Part shown: positions 4,988 to 32,659 of the stretch, piece after piece
Layout: each line of letters begins with the position of its first letter
Numbering within the stretch: the stretch's first letter is position 1
DNA from: an uncultured Oscillospiraceae bacterium
GTDB taxonomy: Bacteria > Bacillota > Clostridia > Oscillospirales > Ruminococcaceae
Direction of reading: 5' to 3'
DNA: 41,246 nucleotides
Assembly (NCBI GenBank): GCA_949299455.1
Contig: CASGAN010000015.1
Coordinates: 1-41,246, forward strand
Made by a program: the position numbers and the translations under genes
Notes under the pieces: model-generated
The model's input: only the letters and a program-made list of their open reading frames with translations
The model's database searches: none
What the model was told of the DNA's origin: nothing

Positions 4988-6565
4988 ATGTATTGTAAAA
5001 AATGCGGTTTGCAAATAAACGATGATGCCGTATTTTGCAAAAAATGCGGGACAAAACAAATTGCCATTTTGTCAGATGATGAAACGCAAGAAAAAGCTGA
5101 TAGTGAAAAAATAAATGAACAGGAGCTTCTGAATAATACATATACAGATGAAACTACCGCTTTCATCGAGAACGAGCCGAGCGAAGATAATCACAAAACA
5201 AAAATTAAAAAGAAGTGGCTTTTACTTATAGCAATTGGTGTTCCCTTTATTCTTATTGGGATATTTTTGATATTGTGGAATATGGGGATTTTTAGAAGCG
5301 GATTAAGTGAATCTGATGTCCGGACGGCTATTTCAAATCATATGCGTGATGCGCACGGTGTACGCATAGAAGAATTTACAAATATAAGCATAGATAAAAG
5401 CGGCGCTCAAGCAACGGTAATAATTGTTTATAACGAGGATGGTTATGATGTTACCTATCCGCCATCCAAAGTCACATTGAATGCACAAGGTGATGTTATT
5501 TCCTGCATATTTTGTCAGTCTGATTCAGAAGAAGATGAAACTTCCTCATCTGAAGAAATTGATGATACAATAGTAGGCACTTTTGAAACCGATAATTTGA
5601 CAACAGCACATTATAGCCATGTTGTTTTTTATGACGACGGAAAATTTGAAGCCTATACCGGTATGTCTTGGACTAACTATCCCTATTGGCCTAATATAAC
5701 TATTTCAGAGCAAGTCCCTAGTTTTGATTCGGGGACTTATACAGAATCCGGAGATATAATTACCGCTAATTTGCATAAAATCGGCGGTCATGATTGCACT
5801 TTAAAATTCCAGAAAGTAAAAAACAATTCAGGAGAGCCGTTGCTTATAATTATTGATGCCGCCCATGATAGTTATCATTGTTTGGACGGAGAATATGGAA
5901 CAGAAGAGGTAGGTGTTGGATATGTGAAGGTTTCTAACCGTTATCTTGAGATGTCTTCGCATTCCGATATTGATACAATTCCCGCCGAAGGAACTATACT
6001 CAAATATTCTAACGACCCAACATCTTCACAAGAAAATCCGAATTATTCAAATGATTCATCATCTGCTTCAGTCTGCCCTCGTTGTGGTCGGCCATTAACT
6101 GACGGAGAAACCTGTGACTGTACCTGGTGTGATATATGTAACGCTTGGATGCTTGGCCACGGGCATGGAGAAGGAGAAGAGCCTGTAGATTCAAGCACTT
6201 CACAGAGCAACAATGATTCTTCTACCCAAAACGGAACAGGCTCTACGGAGGATTTTGTCCCGATTGCGCCGGAAGTATTGTCCGTAACGCCACGCATTAA
6301 TGCAGATAATAATGCCTTTATACTTCTTGATATTACCATTTCTGATTTATCTCTTGGAGAGAAAAGTCCTTCACATTATAATGCCGGTGAAAATTTAACA
6401 ATCACGGTAAATGGGACAAAGGTTAATCACAAAACAGCTTGGTGGGGAGGCAAAAAGTGGCAAATACAAATAGACAATATAAATTTATCCGATACAAAAA
6501 CATTTACCGTCGTTCTCACAAATAAATATGGGCTTAGCACTACCCGTACAGTCACATTTCCATAA
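4988..6565 (+). CDS. Large zinc-ribbon, membrane-anchored protein with secreted domains
   Basis: A 525-residue protein. An N-terminal zinc ribbon (C3, C6, C17, C20: MYCKKCG...FCKKCG) lies in the cytoplasm, then an acidic linker, a basic KTKIKKK stop and one membrane segment at about 76-98. Outside are a small alpha/beta domain (about 105-175), a beta-rich domain (about 195-325), Ser/Asn-rich linkers, a second cysteine cluster (CPRCGRPL at 363, CDC at 376, CDIC at 381, then HGHG) and an Ig-like C-terminal domain (about 430-525). Zinc-ribbon-plus-membrane proteins of this sort are common in Firmicutes but mostly unstudied. The gene follows the P-loop NTPase by 17 bases, with GGTGA as ribosome site. 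Its N-terminus is nearly the same as that of the frameshifted protein, showing duplication. Confidence 0.75.
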   Translation: MYCKKCGLQINDDAVFCKKCGTKQIAILSDDETQEKADSEKINEQELLNNTYTDETTAFIENEPSEDNHKTKIKKKWLLLIAIGVPFILIGIFLILWNMGIFRSGLSESDVRTAISNHMRDAHGVRIEEFTNISIDKSGAQATVIIVYNEDGYDVTYPPSKVTLNAQGDVISCIFCQSDSEEDETSSSEEIDDTIVGTFETDNLTTAHYSHVVFYDDGKFEAYTGMSWTNYPYWPNITISEQVPSFDSGTYTESGDIITANLHKIGGHDCTLKFQKVKNNSGEPLLIIIDAAHDSYHCLDGEYGTEEVGVGYVKVSNRYLEMSSHSDIDTIPAEGTILKYSNDPTSSQENPNYSNDSSSASVCPRCGRPLTDGETCDCTWCDICNAWMLGHGHGEGEEPVDSSTSQSNNDSSTQNGTGSTEDFVPIAPEVLSVTPRINADNNAFILLDITISDLSLGEKSPSHYNAGENLTITVNGTKVNHKTAWWGGKKWQIQIDNINLSDTKTFTVVLTNKYGLSTTRTVTFP

Positions 6566-6742
6566 TTTTTCGCTAAAACGGAGAATTACAATACTTATTA
6601 GCTGAATAAAGCCATTATATCACAAACAGAACATCTTTCATCTGACCATTTCAAATTATTCTGCATATTTTCAGTTTCTGTCGTTTGGGAATACAAATGT
6701 AAACCACAAAAAATCTGAATCCAGATAAAAATTCGTTAAATA
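6566..6742. other. Intergenic tail of the accessory island, nothing recognised
   Basis: AT-rich sequence after the last island gene and before the terminator at 6743. It has no convincing open frame or promoter. The whole gap 6566-7160 also holds the terminator, an inverted repeat with DnaA-box-like words and two promoters, listed separately. Confidence 0.5.
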
Positions 6743-6781
6743 ACAAATCGTCCTCAACCTTTTTGGTTGAGGACGATTTGT
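6743..6781 (+). terminator. Strong bidirectional hairpin terminator closing the island
   Basis: ACAAATCGTCCTCAACC pairs perfectly with GGTTGAGGACGATTTGT over a TTTTT loop (17-bp stem). The outer AAAT/ATTT bases give a short U-run (TTTGTTTG). To its right the base composition becomes that of the housekeeping genome, so it lies near the island edge. Confidence 0.8.
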
Positions 6782-6945
6782 TTGTATCCTATTCAGTTGT
6801 CTTGGATTTCTCCGTTAAGGATATCACGCGTTGCGCGGAGCTTTTTTCTTTTTGTGGAATAAATTGAGCCTTATACAATGGGTAGAACGCGTGAAATGTT
6901 GAAACACTGCGCAGAACTGTTGAAAACATTCGCGAATCAAGCCCG

Positions 6946-6999
6946 TTTTTCCACGCTTTCAACTGAGTTTTCAACAACACGGTGGAAAGCGTGGAAAAC
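6946..6999. repeat. Inverted repeat with DnaA-box-like words
   Basis: TTTTCCACGCTTTC (6947-6960) is matched by GAAAGCGTGGAAAA (6985-6998). Between and around are TTTTCAACA (6969-6977), TTTCAACTG and, on the other strand, GTTGAAAAC (6919-6927). The words resemble relaxed DnaA boxes (TTATCCACA, TTTTCAACA), but no dnaA or dnaN gene is near. It may instead be a protein-binding site or leader structure upstream of rlmB. Confidence 0.4.
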
Positions 7000-7022
7000 T
7001 GTTTTGGGGAAAATTTTGTCCT

Positions 7023-27846: not shown

Positions 27847-28488
27847 ATGAATATTATATCACCATCGATTCTTGCAGCCGATTTTGGAAATTTGAAAAAG
27901 GAGATTGAACGCATCAGCGAAGCACAATGGGTTCACATTGACGTGATGGACGGTCATTTTGTACCGAATATTTCGTTTGGACTGCCGATTGTTTCTGCTG
28001 TCCGCAAGCTGACTGCACAGGTGCTTGACGTTCATTTGATGATTTCCAATCCTCTTACCTATGCGGAGCGGTTTGTAAAAGCCGGTGCGGATTTTGTAGT
28101 ATTTCATATGGAGTCGGATGACGATCCAAAAGAAGTCATTCGTGCAGTTCGGAATGCGGGCGCAAAGGTAGGCGCTGCGATTAAACCGGGCACACCGGTA
28201 GAAGCACTTTACGACGTGATGGATTCGCTCGATCTTGCACTGATTATGACAGTGGAACCGGGATTCGGCGGACAGTCGTTTCTGTTTGACACGGTGCCGA
28301 AAACTCGTGCACTGCGTGCATTCTGTACGGAAAATGGGCTGAACGTTCCGATTCAGGTGGACGGCGGCATCAACCGTGAAACTGCAGCAATTTGTGCACA
28401 GGCTGGTGCAGATGTACTGGTTGCCGGTTCGTATGTATTTTCAAGCAACGATGCCACTGCGGCTGTTCATTCACTCATGCATCTTTGA
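27847..28488 (+). CDS. rpe: Ribulose-phosphate 3-epimerase
   Basis: Interconverts ribulose-5-phosphate and xylulose-5-phosphate in the pentose phosphate pathway. 213 residues, a TIM barrel of normal length: ISPSILAADFGNL, metal-site VHIDVMDGHFVPNISFG, DVHLMI, TVEPGFGGQSF (loop 6), and VDGGINRETA and VAGSYVF for phosphate binding. TAGGAG lies about 8 bases upstream. Its last 18 bases overlap the end of the convergent mecA-like gene. Confidence 0.95.
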   Translation: MNIISPSILAADFGNLKKEIERISEAQWVHIDVMDGHFVPNISFGLPIVSAVRKLTAQVLDVHLMISNPLTYAERFVKAGADFVVFHMESDDDPKEVIRAVRNAGAKVGAAIKPGTPVEALYDVMDSLDLALIMTVEPGFGGQSFLFDTVPKTRALRAFCTENGLNVPIQVDGGINRETAAICAQAGADVLVAGSYVFSSNDATAAVHSLMHL

Positions 28489-29043
28489 AAATAATGCACT
28501 GATCGATGCAGTGGCCTGGGTTTCAAACAACGGCTGCGCATACTCCTCAATCAGAAATCCAGCTGTGTTTGACTCGATTCGCCAGGCGGTGTATGGGGTA
28601 AGCAGTTTTAAAAAAAGCGGATCTGCAGCATTATACGAGTATAAAATCAGATAATAAATATGATTTTGATGATACAGTGCACTTTTTAAAATGATGTGCC
28701 CGAAATACTGCTCAAGCGTTCTGCAAAGGCAAACCGCATGAAACAGAGAGGGCAGTTTGAATACATGTTCACACGGGTGCTGTTTTGCAGTGCCGGATGA
28801 TTCTTTTTCTGAGATATATAAAATGCATCCGCCGTCGGCATACGGATAGGCTTCAATCAGCAGACTTTTGCTGATGAGATCTAAACCGGTTTGCTGTTTT
28901 GCAGCGCGCATCAGCAAAATAAGTGCGCGGCGTGTCTGCGGATGTTGTTCATCGATCGTTTCGTAAGTAAGATTCAGGTTTGAAAGATCTGCGGCAGTCA
29001 GTACAATTTTGATGCCGCGTCGATCAAACAGCTCTATTTTCAA
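28471..29043 (-). CDS. MecA/YpbH-like adaptor protein
   Basis: 190 residues. The N-terminus (MKIELFDRRGIKIVLTAADLSNLNLTYETID) and the following helix and strand (ALILLMRAAKQQTGLDLISKSLLIEAYPYADGGCILYIS) match the MecA family, which recruits substrates to the ClpC protease. The C-terminal domain (VFKLPSLFHAVCLCRTLEQYF, YLILYS) follows the family fold. It starts with TTG at 29043, with GGAGTG 7 bases upstream. MecA is normally 210-230 residues, so this is a short and diverged member. No competence genes are near; a role in proteolysis control is inferred. Confidence 0.75.
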   Translation of the reverse strand: MKIELFDRRGIKIVLTAADLSNLNLTYETIDEQHPQTRRALILLMRAAKQQTGLDLISKSLLIEAYPYADGGCILYISEKESSGTAKQHPCEHVFKLPSLFHAVCLCRTLEQYFGHIILKSALYHQNHIYYLILYSYNAADPLFLKLLTPYTAWRIESNTAGFLIEEYAQPLFETQATASISALFSKMHE

Positions 29044-29156: not shown

Positions 29157-30158
29157 ATGGCTCAAACGATAAAAACGAATACACAGGCCGTGATACGCCG
29201 GCGGGAGATCAATATGCTGCTGGTTTTGTGTGCGCTTTGTGTTATGCCGATTTATTTATACGGTATTCAGGTTTTGTGGATCATTGCATCCGCAGTGGTG
29301 ACTGCGTTTGCAGCGGAATATGCCTGCACCTTGCTGCGCGGTCAGCGCAGAATCCAAAAAGGGGATTTTTCCTATTTGATCACCGCACTGATTACGGCGC
29401 TGTTAATGCCGGCGAGTGCGCCTGTCTGGATGGTTGTGGCAGCTGTGCTGTTCGGCATCTGCATCGCAAAGCATCCGTTCGGCGGAAAAGGAATGAATAT
29501 TTTCAATCCGGCAGCCGCAGGAATTGCGTTTGTAACAATCTGCTGGCCGCAGGTGATGAACCAGTATCCGCAGCCGCTTTCGCAGACGCTCATTTTCTCC
29601 ACAACACCGGCAAGTACGCTGCGTGTTGGCGGTACACCGAACATCGGCGTGTTCGATTTGCTGCTCGGCAATTTTGCAGGTCCGATGGGTGCCACTGTGA
29701 TGATCGTGCTGGCGGCATGCTTGCTGTTTTTGATTTTCCGCCGTACCGTTTCCCTGCGCGTGATTGTGCCGGTGATTGCGATTGTCGGATTTTGCGCAGT
29801 TTTCTTCCCGCGTCTGATGACGGGACGCATCCATTCGCTCGAATTTGAATTTGCATCGGGTGCGCTTGTGTTCGGACTCGCTTTTATGGCAAGCGATCCG
29901 TGCACACTGCCGAAAACCGGATCGGGTAAAATTATCTATGGCGTGCTGCTCGGTATCTTTGTCGTGCTGATGCGCCGGTTTGGATCGTTCGACGTGGAAT
30001 TTGTCTTTGCGCTTCTTTTGGCAAATGCATTTTCGCCGTCCTGCGACCGCTATGCACGCAAACTCCGGTTTGCATGGTCAAGAATGAAACGGCGGCTGCG
30101 CAAATCCCATCATCATGCGCAAGCATCCGCAGAGAAAGCAGGTGACGCAGTTGAATAA
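29157..30158 (+). CDS. rnfD: RnfD-like membrane subunit of electron transport complex
   Basis: 333 residues, about nine membrane segments, of the RnfD/NqrB family. Family signatures: GDFSYLITALITALLMPASAPVW, KHPFGGKGMNIFNPAAAG, GSGKIIYG. In Rnf and Nqr a Thr in an S-G-A-T motif carries covalent FMN; the matching stretch here is FSTTPASTL (147-155), where the acceptor Thr seems replaced by Ser and Gly by Pro. ATG 29157 has GGAGGAG 6 bases upstream. Normally rnfC precedes and rnfG follows rnfD; here both are missing, and rnfE overlaps the end. Confidence 0.85.
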   Translation: MAQTIKTNTQAVIRRREINMLLVLCALCVMPIYLYGIQVLWIIASAVVTAFAAEYACTLLRGQRRIQKGDFSYLITALITALLMPASAPVWMVVAAVLFGICIAKHPFGGKGMNIFNPAAAGIAFVTICWPQVMNQYPQPLSQTLIFSTTPASTLRVGGTPNIGVFDLLLGNFAGPMGATVMIVLAACLLFLIFRRTVSLRVIVPVIAIVGFCAVFFPRLMTGRIHSLEFEFASGALVFGLAFMASDPCTLPKTGSGKIIYGVLLGIFVVLMRRFGSFDVEFVFALLLANAFSPSCDRYARKLRFAWSRMKRRLRKSHHHAQASAEKAGDAVE

Positions 30159-30792
30159 GACGTTTTATCAGCGCCACCGCGAAAAACTTCAAAAGTTAAA
30201 CGGCTTGTTTATGACAAACCCTGTGGTGGAGCGCGGTTTTATCTTGGCACCTGTTGTTGCAGCGGCATACAGCTGTAAAAATGCAGTGTCGCTCGGCATT
30301 GGCTTTATGATTATCACATTTTTGACAGTGATGCTTTCTTCGTTTATTTCCAAACGGATTCCCTATACCATTCGTACGATTTTGTATGCACTCATCGGTT
30401 GTGTGGTCTTTGTTCCGACAGCAATGCTGATTGATTGGATGTTTGAAGATGCACTGTATACAACCGGTATTTTCCTGCCGCTTCTTGTGGCAAACTCGCT
30501 GATTGTTGTAAAGAGCGAATCCCGCTTCCACAAGCACAACAAAGGATATATGGCAGTTGACGTATTCAGTCATACCGTTGGATTTTTCATTGTCATTGTG
30601 CTGGTCGGCTTGATTCGTGAGTTCTTTGGTTCGGGCACATTGTTCGGTGTTTCAGTGAACCAGCTGGTTGTTGCACCTGCATTGCTGATGCCGTTTTCCG
30701 GCTTTATTCTGGTGGGCCTTTTGGCAGCACTCGGAAACATCATCCGCAAGCGGATTGAACATCCCCGCTCAAAAGAGGAGGGCCTCCAATGA
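30151..30792 (+). CDS. rnfE: RnfE-like membrane subunit lacking cluster cysteines
   Basis: 213 residues from TTG 30151 (AGGTGA 5 bases upstream; an earlier frame extension lies inside rnfD). Six membrane segments of the RnfE/NqrD family: NPVVERGFILAPVVAAA, GIFLPLLVANSLIVV, GLIREFFGSGTLFG. In this family two Cys (LGLCP and the VxNC motif) help bind a membrane [2Fe-2S] cluster. Here the first is Ala33 (ILAP) and the second is Ser116 (VANS). It overlaps rnfD by 8 bases and rnfA by 4. Confidence 0.85.
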   Translation: MNKTFYQRHREKLQKLNGLFMTNPVVERGFILAPVVAAAYSCKNAVSLGIGFMIITFLTVMLSSFISKRIPYTIRTILYALIGCVVFVPTAMLIDWMFEDALYTTGIFLPLLVANSLIVVKSESRFHKHNKGYMAVDVFSHTVGFFIVIVLVGLIREFFGSGTLFGVSVNQLVVAPALLMPFSGFILVGLLAALGNIIRKRIEHPRSKEEGLQ

Positions 30793-31409
30793 ATGAATTT
30801 ATGAGTGCGCTTCGGACATTCCTTGGTGACATGTTCATCTATGCCATGATTGCGATTTTTATTGAAAATACAATTTTTTCGCGCTCGATCGGCGTTTCAA
30901 CCGTTTTGTTTTCGGTGCGCAAAAAATATAATATCTTTTTGCTTGGATTGATTATGACCTGCATGCTGGCAGTTTCGTCGATTGCGGTTTACTTCATCTT
31001 CCCGTTTTTAAAACCGCTTTCTTATTCCTATTATGTACTGCCGCCGGTTTATGTGGCAGTCATCGGTGTGATGTATGTGATTGCACTGCTGCTGACACAG
31101 AAATTTGCAAAAAAACGCAGACAGGAAATTCTCTCAATTATCCATGTAGGCGTATTCAACTGTGCGGTGCTGGGTGCGCTTTTGCTTGCAACCAACAACG
31201 TAACCGGTTCGTTTGGCATGTTTTTTGGATTTGCAGTCGGTACAGGAATCGGTTTTATGCTCGCATCGTATACGGTACGCATTGCATATGAGCACTTGTC
31301 CAGCGAATCCGTTCCGGAAGCGTTTCGCGGATTTCCGATTACGCTCATTTACATCGGACTTGTTTCACTTGCGCTGTACGGCGTCATCGGACATGAGCTG
31401 CCGTTCTGA
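30789..31409 (+). CDS. rnfA: RnfA-like membrane subunit with one cluster cysteine missing
   Basis: 206 residues, six membrane segments, RnfA/NqrE family: FIENTIFSRSIGVST at the N-terminus, FNCAVLGALLLATN (Cys125), FRGFPITLIYIGLVSLA at the C-terminus. Cys125 in NCAVLG is kept, but the N-terminal LGxCP cysteine is replaced (IGVST, Ser37/Thr38). The start overlaps the rnfE stop as ATGA, with GAGGAGGG 6 bases upstream. rnfB, which normally follows, is absent; the next gene is a glycoside-hydrolase-like protein. Confidence 0.85.
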   Translation: MNEFMSALRTFLGDMFIYAMIAIFIENTIFSRSIGVSTVLFSVRKKYNIFLLGLIMTCMLAVSSIAVYFIFPFLKPLSYSYYVLPPVYVAVIGVMYVIALLLTQKFAKKRRQEILSIIHVGVFNCAVLGALLLATNNVTGSFGMFFGFAVGTGIGFMLASYTVRIAYEHLSSESVPEAFRGFPITLIYIGLVSLALYGVIGHELPF

Positions 31410-31498: not shown

Positions 31499-32659
31499 AT
31501 GGCAAAACCAAGAAAAGTTGTGCGAACAAAGCGAATTTATAAGAAGACGCATTCCAAATTACCGGGACGTGTGGCGCGGGGCGTGTTATTCGTGCTGCTT
31601 TTGGTGCTGCTGGTCGGGTTTGGATATATGATGAGCAAAGCGATCGGCGGATGGCTTTCTCAAAAGCCGGAGCAGTCTTCGGAAACCACACAGTCGAGTA
31701 CTCCGAACGAGAGTACACCGGAGGAAGCTTTGCCTGAATCAAGTGAAGAGCCGGAGCAGACGGCGGTGTACGGTGTTGTGATGACACCGGACAAGGCGTC
31801 TTTGACTGGTACAGCGCTTACAGATTATCTGAATGAACTGAAAGCACAGGGATATACAACTGTGTTTGTCACACTCAAGGATGAAAACGGTGATGTCTGG
31901 TATCAGTCGGATGCCGAGGAGGCAATCCGGTTGAATACAGTACGTGCGGATGCGTTTGACGCACAGGCGCTGTGTGCAGAGATCAAAAAAGCAGGACTTA
32001 CCCCGGCGGCGCATATTACAGGGCTTAAGGACCCCAAAGCGGCACATGTACGCAATGAGAACTCCTTTGCTTATGCAAATCAGCTGAACATCAACTGGCT
32101 CGATTCCTCTGTGGAGCTGGGTGGAAAAGCATGGCTCAACCCGTATATGGAAAAGGCGAGACTGTATTTAAGTCAACTTGCAGCCGATGCGGCAGCAAAA
32201 GGATTTGAGCAGATTGCTGTCAGTGATGTGAACTTCCCGACAAGAAATACACGAAATATGAATACCATTTTGACCGAACCGTCGCGTACGGCAATTCTTG
32301 GTCAAACACTCGATGAAATGCAGGCCGCTGCTGGTGATGTGCCGGTGTATAACTGGGTGGATATGGCGGAGCAGTCTGCACTCAGTGAAAACGCAGGACT
32401 TGTCGATCTGCGTGAAATCGGTTATGATAAAAATGCACCTGAAGTAAGCCTTGATGCGATTGCGCAACGCAGAGGCGTGCTTTCACAGAAGTTTGGCACA
32501 GAGGCCGATGATCTGACAATTGCAAAAGAGATGCTTCGCCAGATGAAGGCGGACGGCACGCTGTCAGGCGAGCTGATGCCGGTCATTTTGAAAAAAGATG
32601 TGCAAACATTGCTTCCGGTGCTTGAAGAACTGGAAATCGAGAGCTATCTTGTGGTATAA
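31499..32659 (+). CDS. Membrane-anchored glycoside-hydrolase-like protein (DUF4015-like)
   Basis: 386 residues: a basic N-terminus (MAKPRKVVRTKRIYKKTHSK), one membrane segment (about 31-52), a Ser/Glu/Pro-rich linker (60-95) and a TIM-barrel-like domain (GTALTDYLNELKAQGYTTVFVTLKDENG, EIKKAGLTPAAHITGLKD, WLNPYMEKARLYLSQLAADAAAKGFEQIAVSDVNFP). The layout resembles the putative glycoside hydrolases of DUF4015 type that are found outside the cell. AAGGAG 7 bases before ATG 31499. The substrate is unknown. The next gene, a phosphohexomutase, follows within 80 bases. Confidence 0.65.
   Translation: MAKPRKVVRTKRIYKKTHSKLPGRVARGVLFVLLLVLLVGFGYMMSKAIGGWLSQKPEQSSETTQSSTPNESTPEEALPESSEEPEQTAVYGVVMTPDKASLTGTALTDYLNELKAQGYTTVFVTLKDENGDVWYQSDAEEAIRLNTVRADAFDAQALCAEIKKAGLTPAAHITGLKDPKAAHVRNENSFAYANQLNINWLDSSVELGGKAWLNPYMEKARLYLSQLAADAAAKGFEQIAVSDVNFPTRNTRNMNTILTEPSRTAILGQTLDEMQAAAGDVPVYNWVDMAEQSALSENAGLVDLREIGYDKNAPEVSLDAIAQRRGVLSQKFGTEADDLTIAKEMLRQMKADGTLSGELMPVILKKDVQTLLPVLEELEIESYLVV

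Follow-up and report, generated by a model that had tools for sequence, protein, structure and literature searches.

The window analysed here is a stretch of 41,246 nucleotides (contig CASGAN010000015.1 of assembly GCA_949299455.1, from an uncultured Oscillospiraceae bacterium), and it carries three overlapping genes that resemble rnfD, rnfE and rnfA, which encode the membrane core of the Rnf complex. We refer to these genes and their products as D, E and A, or together as the trio. Their positions in the window are:

29157..30158, plus strand: D, a divergent RnfD/NqrB-like membrane protein of 333 amino acids (PF03116, 1.7e-70)
30151..30792, plus strand: E, a divergent RnfE/NqrD-like membrane protein of 213 amino acids, read from the TTG at 30151 (PF02508, 1.3e-26)
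30789..31409, plus strand: A, a divergent RnfA/NqrE-like membrane protein of 206 amino acids (PF02508, 2.3e-21)

Gene calls and Pfam matches, all of them far over the cut-offs, confirm the tight array that a preliminary description had read from the letters, with overlaps of 8 bases between D and E (for the TTG start of E) and 4 bases between E and A. An upstream in-frame ATG at 30115 offers an alternative start for E, giving 225 amino acids and a D-E overlap of 44 bases. The NCBIfam models rnfD, rnfE and rnfA match D, E and A below their curated cut-offs (173.6 vs 207, 81.6 vs 213 and 55.5 vs 229 bits, respectively). An AlphaFold2 model of D built with a family alignment has a predicted local distance difference test (pLDDT) score of 91.6, and its best match in the PDB is RnfD with a template modelling (TM) score of 0.76-0.79; in Foldseek the RnfD/NqrB chains match at TM 0.69-0.79, followed weakly by urea and ammonium transporters (for urea E 0.03, TM ~0.35). 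The E model, likewise from a family alignment (pLDDT 85.2), is closest to RnfE/NqrD (TM ~0.7) and then to RnfA/NqrE. As the modelled folds of D and E are Rnf folds, the losses described below hit cofactor sites rather than the architecture.

According to passages of PMC12174285, electrons pass through the E-A dimer of Rnf and Nqr via its [2Fe-2S] cluster, in an alternating-access mechanism. At the four ligand positions of this cluster the window has:

30247..30249, plus strand: E codon 45, Ala, first ligand position (alignment with RnfE of 7zc6, 9eri and 8ahx and canonical relatives)
30496..30498, plus strand: E codon 128, Ser, second ligand position (alignment with solved RnfE and canonical relatives)
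30897..30899, plus strand: A codon 37, Ser (IGVST), first ligand position (alignment with solved RnfA and canonical relatives)
31161..31163, plus strand: A codon 125, Cys, the sole retained ligand (alignment with solved RnfA and canonical relatives)

Residues of E are counted here from the ATG at 30115, so that codons 45 and 128 are the Ala33 and Ser116 of the preliminary description. The aligned solved RnfE and RnfA chains have Cys at these positions, and the alignment with them places Ala, Ser, Ser and Cys of the trio there; the replacements in E, the lost first Cys of A and the retained Cys125 had all been read correctly. Three of the four cysteines are gone, and the trio has no four-Cys cluster site.

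The relatives were compared in two overlapping sets that were not merged: a first set of loci (set one), and a named set consisting of the best 80 of 180 relatives in a scan of named genomes. Among the divergent proteins of set one a ligand Cys occurs in 0/52 at the first and 0/53 at the second position of E, and in 0/51 and 32/50 at the corresponding positions of A, the denominators excluding one missing letter each in E of L065 and A of L066. The named set gives 0/79, 0/80, 0/80 and 66/80 in the same order, and two reduced genomes described below keep none of the four. Canonical E and A of the window's own genome have Cys at all four positions. Because the D-E-A order and the cysteine losses recur across the divergent loci examined, they are not a matter of chance. 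Judged from these alignments, the loss of the transmembrane electron route via the E-A [2Fe-2S] cluster is well supported for every divergent protein aligned.

In six members (L053, L056, L059, L062, L063 and L099) Glu-Pro stands where the RnfE core has Asn-Cys, which puts an acidic residue at the would-be cluster place, and six further divergent members have Asp at that place of E. A salt bridge substituting for the cluster, formed by the acidic residue at E 127 (12/51) and a basic residue at A 38, was considered and rejected, as the association (Fisher p 0.016) comes from two independent pairs and shows no trend on the tree; the window itself lacks this pairing.

The preliminary description had noted the absence of RnfB, RnfC and RnfG. 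This is true of the window locus, where a Pfam scan found none of the three beside the trio, as was also the case at the loci of near relatives, and not of the genome: contig C16 of the same assembly carries a canonical rnfC-D-G-E-A-B series together with an ApbE gene, so that both the full operon and the flavin transferase raised earlier as things to look for are there. With a complete canonical cluster on another contig, the trio is a paralogue of the Rnf membrane core that exists beside a normal Rnf. The rnfB, rnfC and rnfG genes stand in a series with their own D, E and A rather than clearly pairing with the trio.

Searches with phmmer using the genome's own G and B extend this picture. 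The G query matched only six canonical loci and L083, and thus no divergent locus. The B query matched five canonical loci and, weakly (18-19 bits), L083 and a single divergent locus, L103, where the match is of ferredoxin type; neither RnfG nor RnfB was found by phmmer at the 80 named loci. RnfG is poorly conserved and can be missed by phmmer, so that the spacing of D and E is the stronger argument: a gap of more than 100 bases between them is absent in 48 of the 49 loci with all three genes. The sole locus with such a gap, L043 (G001, 6187-6575), has 388 bases there that hold a short open frame.

A remnant of the peripheral machinery does occur in part of the family. An RnfC-like gene (INTERMEDIATE) lies directly before D at 20 of the 54 D-bearing loci of set one and at 5 of the 80 named loci, giving C-D-E-A in canonical order without G and B. 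All 20 set-one proteins keep two 4Fe-4S motifs (CxxCxxCxxxC), while the glycine-rich loop for flavin mononucleotide (FMN) is gone in 20/20 and ECEPY in 19/20 (L077 keeps it); canonical RnfC rows have the FMN loop in 8/8 and ECEPY in 7/8, the eighth reading ECEPL. Pfam applied to nine of the RnfC-like proteins detected 4Fe-4S domains in all, and RnfC_N plus the Nuo51 FMN domain over cut-off in L077 only. The gene product, found at L052, L054, L057, L066, L067, L070, L072, L075, L078 and 11 more loci, looks like what is left of RnfC after its reduction to a ferredoxin-like protein. With the cluster, B and G missing, the sequences leave electrons no way across the membrane by the known route.

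The trio recurs in most sampled genomes of the window's gut-dwelling family, almost always at one locus. With the window's E as query, 56 of 61 genomes gave a match and 38 gave two, a number in which not every pair is canonical plus divergent, as in some the second match is A of the same operon. In 60 family genomes PF02508 has four or five matches in 45, two in 10, one in 2 and none in 3. Among the 45, canonical plus divergent copies were confirmed from fetched loci or listed low scores in 37 and are deduced from the number of matches in 8 (G209, G210, G211, G212, G218, G221, G226 and G229). A divergent-A profile applied to the 15 exceptions found only canonical A and E in 10 (one of these, G012, with an additional chance-level match), nothing in 3, and divergent A in the two reduced genomes. 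PF02508 had missed the divergent A of the latter, so that absence judged by PF02508 alone is weak.

Across 147 genomes of the class PF02508 matches in 110, nearly all with two strong matches; a rescan of the 12 with more than two (the window's own aside) gave full-length low-scoring copies in just two genomes, G059 from the window's own order and G187 from a different family, and short pieces in G080, G158 and G172. Titles in the named set are Clostridia, Clostridiales, Oscillospiraceae, Ruminococcaceae or genera such as Gemmiger and Massilioclostridium, with one Marvinbryantia and one Bacillota. Among the named genomes scanned, Merdimmobilis hominis An559 (Oscillospiraceae by NCBI taxonomy) is nearest, with an A that is 98% identical. 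In a tree of concatenated D-E-A sequences the 50 divergent rows form one group apart from the 10 canonical rows, which include two Clostridia PDB sets, with a Shimodaira-Hasegawa-like approximate likelihood-ratio test (SH-aLRT) value of 100. This tree comes from a quick search, is unrooted and has several long rows; the term derived, as used here, rests on gene order and distribution. The RnfC-like gene changes state three times on it, and at order level L052 and L057 have the gene and L061 is without it.

Selection was assessed as the ratio of non-synonymous to synonymous substitution rates (dN/dS) by the Nei-Gojobori method. Between the window and its nearest relative, L039, dN/dS is 0.061 for D, 0.039 for E and 0.040 for A, and for the neighbouring genes of the same pair it is 0.14 (rpe), 0.076 (mecA) and 0.085 (DUF4015). 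In six other pairs, several of which have high or saturated dS, the trio ranges from 0.06 to 0.46. The window's lineage is thus under strong constraint, and some others are under a looser one. Together with the wide conservation this bears out, for the window's lineage, the earlier view that the genes are not decaying. At L061 (G058, order-level, 6395-7006) E is split by an in-frame stop and is either a pseudogene or an assembly error.

Further support is provided by two reduced genomes of 0.7 and 0.9 Mb, each 97% complete. In each, PF03116 and PF02508 give a single match, in both cases to a divergent copy, and a divergent A is present as well; the three genes lie apart from one another. No canonical RnfD, RnfE or RnfA match was found in either (RnfB, RnfC and RnfG were not searched there genome-wide), and ApbE was found in neither. 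That D, E and A are all kept though scattered argues that they work together, and do so without canonical D, E and A; it also speaks against a pairing of the trio with canonical rnfB, rnfC and rnfG. Immediately after the divergent A, both genomes carry a lipoprotein-like gene (L118 2066-3520, L119 2006-3517), homologous between the two, of 485 and 504 open codons with a weak FG-GAP match, and this gene has no match at the other loci compared.

The flavin sites of D are less uniformly affected. The relevant positions in the window are:

29382..29507, plus strand: D Thr76, Asn114 and Asn117, riboflavin-ligand counterparts (NqrB mapping)
29604..29606, plus strand: D codon 150, Thr at the covalent-FMN position with the rest of the motif lost (alignment)
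29895-29897, plus strand: D Asp247, riboflavin-ligand counterpart (NqrB mapping)

Flavinylation by ApbE follows a DxxxAT motif. Window D keeps the Thr (FSTTP vs canonical ATP), and lacks the upstream Asp (present in 10/10 canonical rows) and the Ala before the Thr (9/10). The attachment site had earlier been called changed; the Asp and Ala are indeed lost, whereas the Thr at the attachment position is still there. Across the divergent family (n = 54) this position is Ser in 30, Gly in 16, Thr in 4, Asn in 3 and Ala in 1; with Ser or Thr a flavin is conceivable, that is in 34/54.

The side-chain ligands of riboflavin in NqrB are T162, N200, N203 and D346 according to an excerpt of PMC10643135 (numbers counted along the printed chain). 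They map to T76, N114, N117 and D247 of the window, where all four are thus present (TNND). If Ser is accepted in place of Thr and Glu in place of Asp, the window and both reduced genomes have the full quartet, as do 32/54 divergent D of set one and 17/78 of the named set. It is incomplete in 22/54 and 61/78, so that D, E and A of these members lack any known redox site apart from a flavin that might sit on Ser or Thr.

On balance we favour the view that the trio arose from the Rnf membrane core as a derived paralogue and now acts as a non-redox membrane transport complex. It is a widely conserved, selected, Rnf-derived membrane complex without a transmembrane electron path, a variant of the Rnf-type core. 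Having lost its electron parts while being upheld by selection, it probably became a transporter or channel. The earlier suggestion of a repurposed membrane module of this kind stands as the best remaining reading, a non-redox transporter or channel for an ion or solute, in which transport itself is what we infer.

The E-A pair would still form the inverted, half-helix, alternating-access dimer of Rnf and Nqr, with the former [2Fe-2S] place now a packed or substrate-binding centre, and D would still form a subunit related to the ammonium/urea transporters. Together they may let an ion or small solute follow a gradient that already exists, or couple its movement to one, rather than pump it with electrons. 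The ancestor probably still included an RnfC-like subunit with 4Fe-4S clusters and a D that held riboflavin, and these may have acted as a cytoplasmic redox sensor. Lineages like the window's would later have lost C, and many also the riboflavin site. More hesitantly, we propose that a redox-driven ion pump has here been turned into a cofactor-free transporter, an Rnf/Nqr core that could shed all the known redox centres in its three subunits while these remain important enough to persist through genome reduction.

Several observations weigh against a non-redox transporter. The counterpart of NqrE Glu95, which an excerpt of PMC10643135 reports as needed for Na+ pumping, occurs in 0/51 divergent A, and the canonical Glu at NqrB 274 in 0/54 divergent D, which makes the same ion mechanism unlikely. 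The likeness of D to urea transporters is weak and a general trait of the RnfD fold. The trio is absent from 13/60 family genomes and thus dispensable there, and in the pair L062-L063 its dN/dS of 0.34-0.46, against 0.20 for rpe, indicates looser constraint. Finally, as far as the sequences tell, a redox role is conceivable both for the C-bearing relatives with their two 4Fe-4S motifs and for the window, with its riboflavin quartet and FMN-site Thr. The loss of electron transfer is thus well supported for the crossing of the membrane and not for every redox step in the window's D; the earlier suggestion that the module no longer carries electrons is supported in the former respect only.

These last features would fit a redox device confined to the cytoplasmic side, in which electrons would move among a ferredoxin-type donor, the two clusters of the RnfC-like 4Fe-4S protein (where present) and riboflavin in D, for sensing or to reduce an outside acceptor, without E-A crossing. 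In its favour, besides the invariant CxxCxxCxxxC pairs, the riboflavin quartet is kept in 20/20 C-bearing vs 12/34 C-less loci of set one and in 5/5 vs 12/73 of the named set. The link between C and riboflavin has, however, too few independent pairs for a test, most loci (the window's among them) have no C, and the RnfC-like proteins have lost the FMN loop and, with one exception, ECEPY. The reduced genomes also lack ApbE. We consider such a device unlikely.

A cell-envelope complex, in which D-E-A together with the DUF4015 protein export or flip an envelope glycan or precursor, is about equally unlikely. It draws on the genes that flank the trio:

27847..28488, plus strand: rpe, ribulose-phosphate 3-epimerase, conserved upstream neighbour (Pfam/NCBIfam, locus comparison)
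28471..29043, minus strand: gene for a MecA-like adaptor, frequent upstream neighbour (Pfam, locus comparison)
31499..32659, plus strand: DUF4015 (putative glycosyl hydrolase) with a hydrophobic N-terminal segment, conserved downstream neighbour (PF13200, 7.6e-17)

The usual order is rpe, often the mecA-like gene, sometimes the RnfC-like gene, D, E, A and DUF4015. Where the stretch reaches far enough, DUF4015 lies downstream at 69/70 named and 40/46 set-one loci, the two reduced genomes being exceptions to the linkage. Full-length DUF4015 occurs in 42/47 genomes with the trio vs 5/13 without it (Fisher p 0.0004, uncorrected for kinship and with 8 of the 47 inferred). Passages of PMC12700454 moreover report DUF4015 fused to YkyA domains, which are themselves also fused to polysaccharide deacetylases. 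Against this, rpe, the gene of a sugar-phosphate enzyme, is linked as closely (upstream at 64/64 named and 46/46 set-one loci with sufficient reach), and DUF4015 is missing from the trio genomes G024, G204 and G213 and from both reduced genomes. Four genomes without the trio (L200, L202, L203 and L204) have rpe next to DUF4015 with at most the mecA-like gene between them, which indicates that the cassette is either there or missing as a whole; in L201, also without the trio, DUF4015 is present and rpe absent from the stretch. The persistent link to DUF4015 hints at an envelope setting, though the two can occur apart. At this locus the position of DUF4015 is conserved and its sequence is 20-32% identical to 16 of 17 aligned relatives, with a Trp, a Lys and an Asp invariant.

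That the trio serves as an alternative membrane core for the canonical RnfB, RnfC and RnfG, which the window's genome does encode, is highly improbable. Its cluster cysteines are lost, D, E and A are already supplied by the canonical cluster itself, and we rejected the idea on the retention of the trio in the two reduced genomes, which lack matches to canonical D, E and A as well as ApbE (the genome-wide searches there did not cover B, C and G). Least credible of all is a decaying remnant of a duplicated rnf operon: the loss of G and B, then of C, then of cofactor sites in some lineages, the in-frame stop at L061, the 13 family genomes without the trio and the one pair of high dN/dS would fit it, but it was rejected for the window's lineage on dN/dS of 0.04-0.06, and newly conserved residues, open frames in nearly all loci and retention in the reduced genomes speak against it as well.

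The newly conserved residues are found in divergent and not in canonical rows. In A they comprise Tyr188 (48/51), Phe123 (41) and His202 (40), and in D Cys188 (45/54) and a YPxP motif (47-49). In addition, Phe occupies the NqrB gate positions F338 and F342 in 50/54 and 48/54 divergent D; at the first of these positions 8/10 canonical Rnf rows have Leu.

Compared with known systems, the non-redox transport complex that we favour shares with Rnf (RnfABCDGE; Clostridium tetanomorphum 7zc6, Acetobacterium woodii 9eri, Azotobacter 8ahx) the homologous D, E, A order and the folds of D and E. It differs in a locus without RnfB and RnfG, in an RnfC-like protein that is absent or has no FMN loop, in the missing four-Cys site and FMN motif, and in forming a clade apart from the canonical rows. 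Its core is likewise homologous to NqrB, NqrD and NqrE of Na+-NQR, with which it mostly shares the gate Phe residues and also the Pro after the counterpart of D346; however, NqrA, NqrC and NqrF were not found beside the trio, and the two Glu counterparts are lost. The NQR/RNF-like systems of Meheust et al. are, according to passages of PMC8238504 and PMC10979944, also reduced, with an NqrB/RnfD-type subunit and an altered flavin site. They differ in having a fusion of NqrB/RnfD with a nicotinamide adenine dinucleotide (NAD)-binding part and an RnfG-like flavoprotein, for which a redox role is proposed, whereas the trio keeps D, E and A and has lost the redox partners. The Pfam scan gave no match to PF00175 (NAD-binding) in window D. 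The ammonium/urea transporter fold, the next-best match of the D model in Foldseek, differs in that identity is ~13% and TM ~0.35. We found no description of such a trio in the open-access literature, which is weak evidence; the nearest is the NQR/RNF-like system in the passages cited.

Passages of PMC12174285 relate RnfD to ammonium/urea transporters, describe RnfA-E as reminiscent of alternating-access symporters, and present the ion path in Rnf/Nqr as unsettled, one model placing it in RnfD/NqrB and another in the RnfA-E dimer. If the trio is indeed a non-redox transporter, the machinery of Rnf and Nqr that moves ions or solutes would be separable from its electron wiring, and the trio could show whether the debated pathway runs through D (NqrB) or E-A. 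In a conserved core without the central cluster, and often without an intact riboflavin site, whatever moves would move without that electron path. For annotation, RnfD, RnfE and RnfA calls in Oscillospiraceae and Ruminococcaceae need not mean a second Rnf or extra energy conservation.

Regulation by a known RNA family within the window was rejected, as Rfam gave no hit at the gathering threshold (a wider RNA search was not run), and promoter-like sites number 4 vs 4.2 expected. A different case is seen at L083 (G187:C13, 3998-8053), where a weak G match stands between D and E in a series C-D-G-E-A, E and A are short and score low, and A reads GIYPV at the first cluster Cys. The contig ends just after A, so that a B gene beyond it is conceivable, and the locus may represent an independent change of the cluster site.

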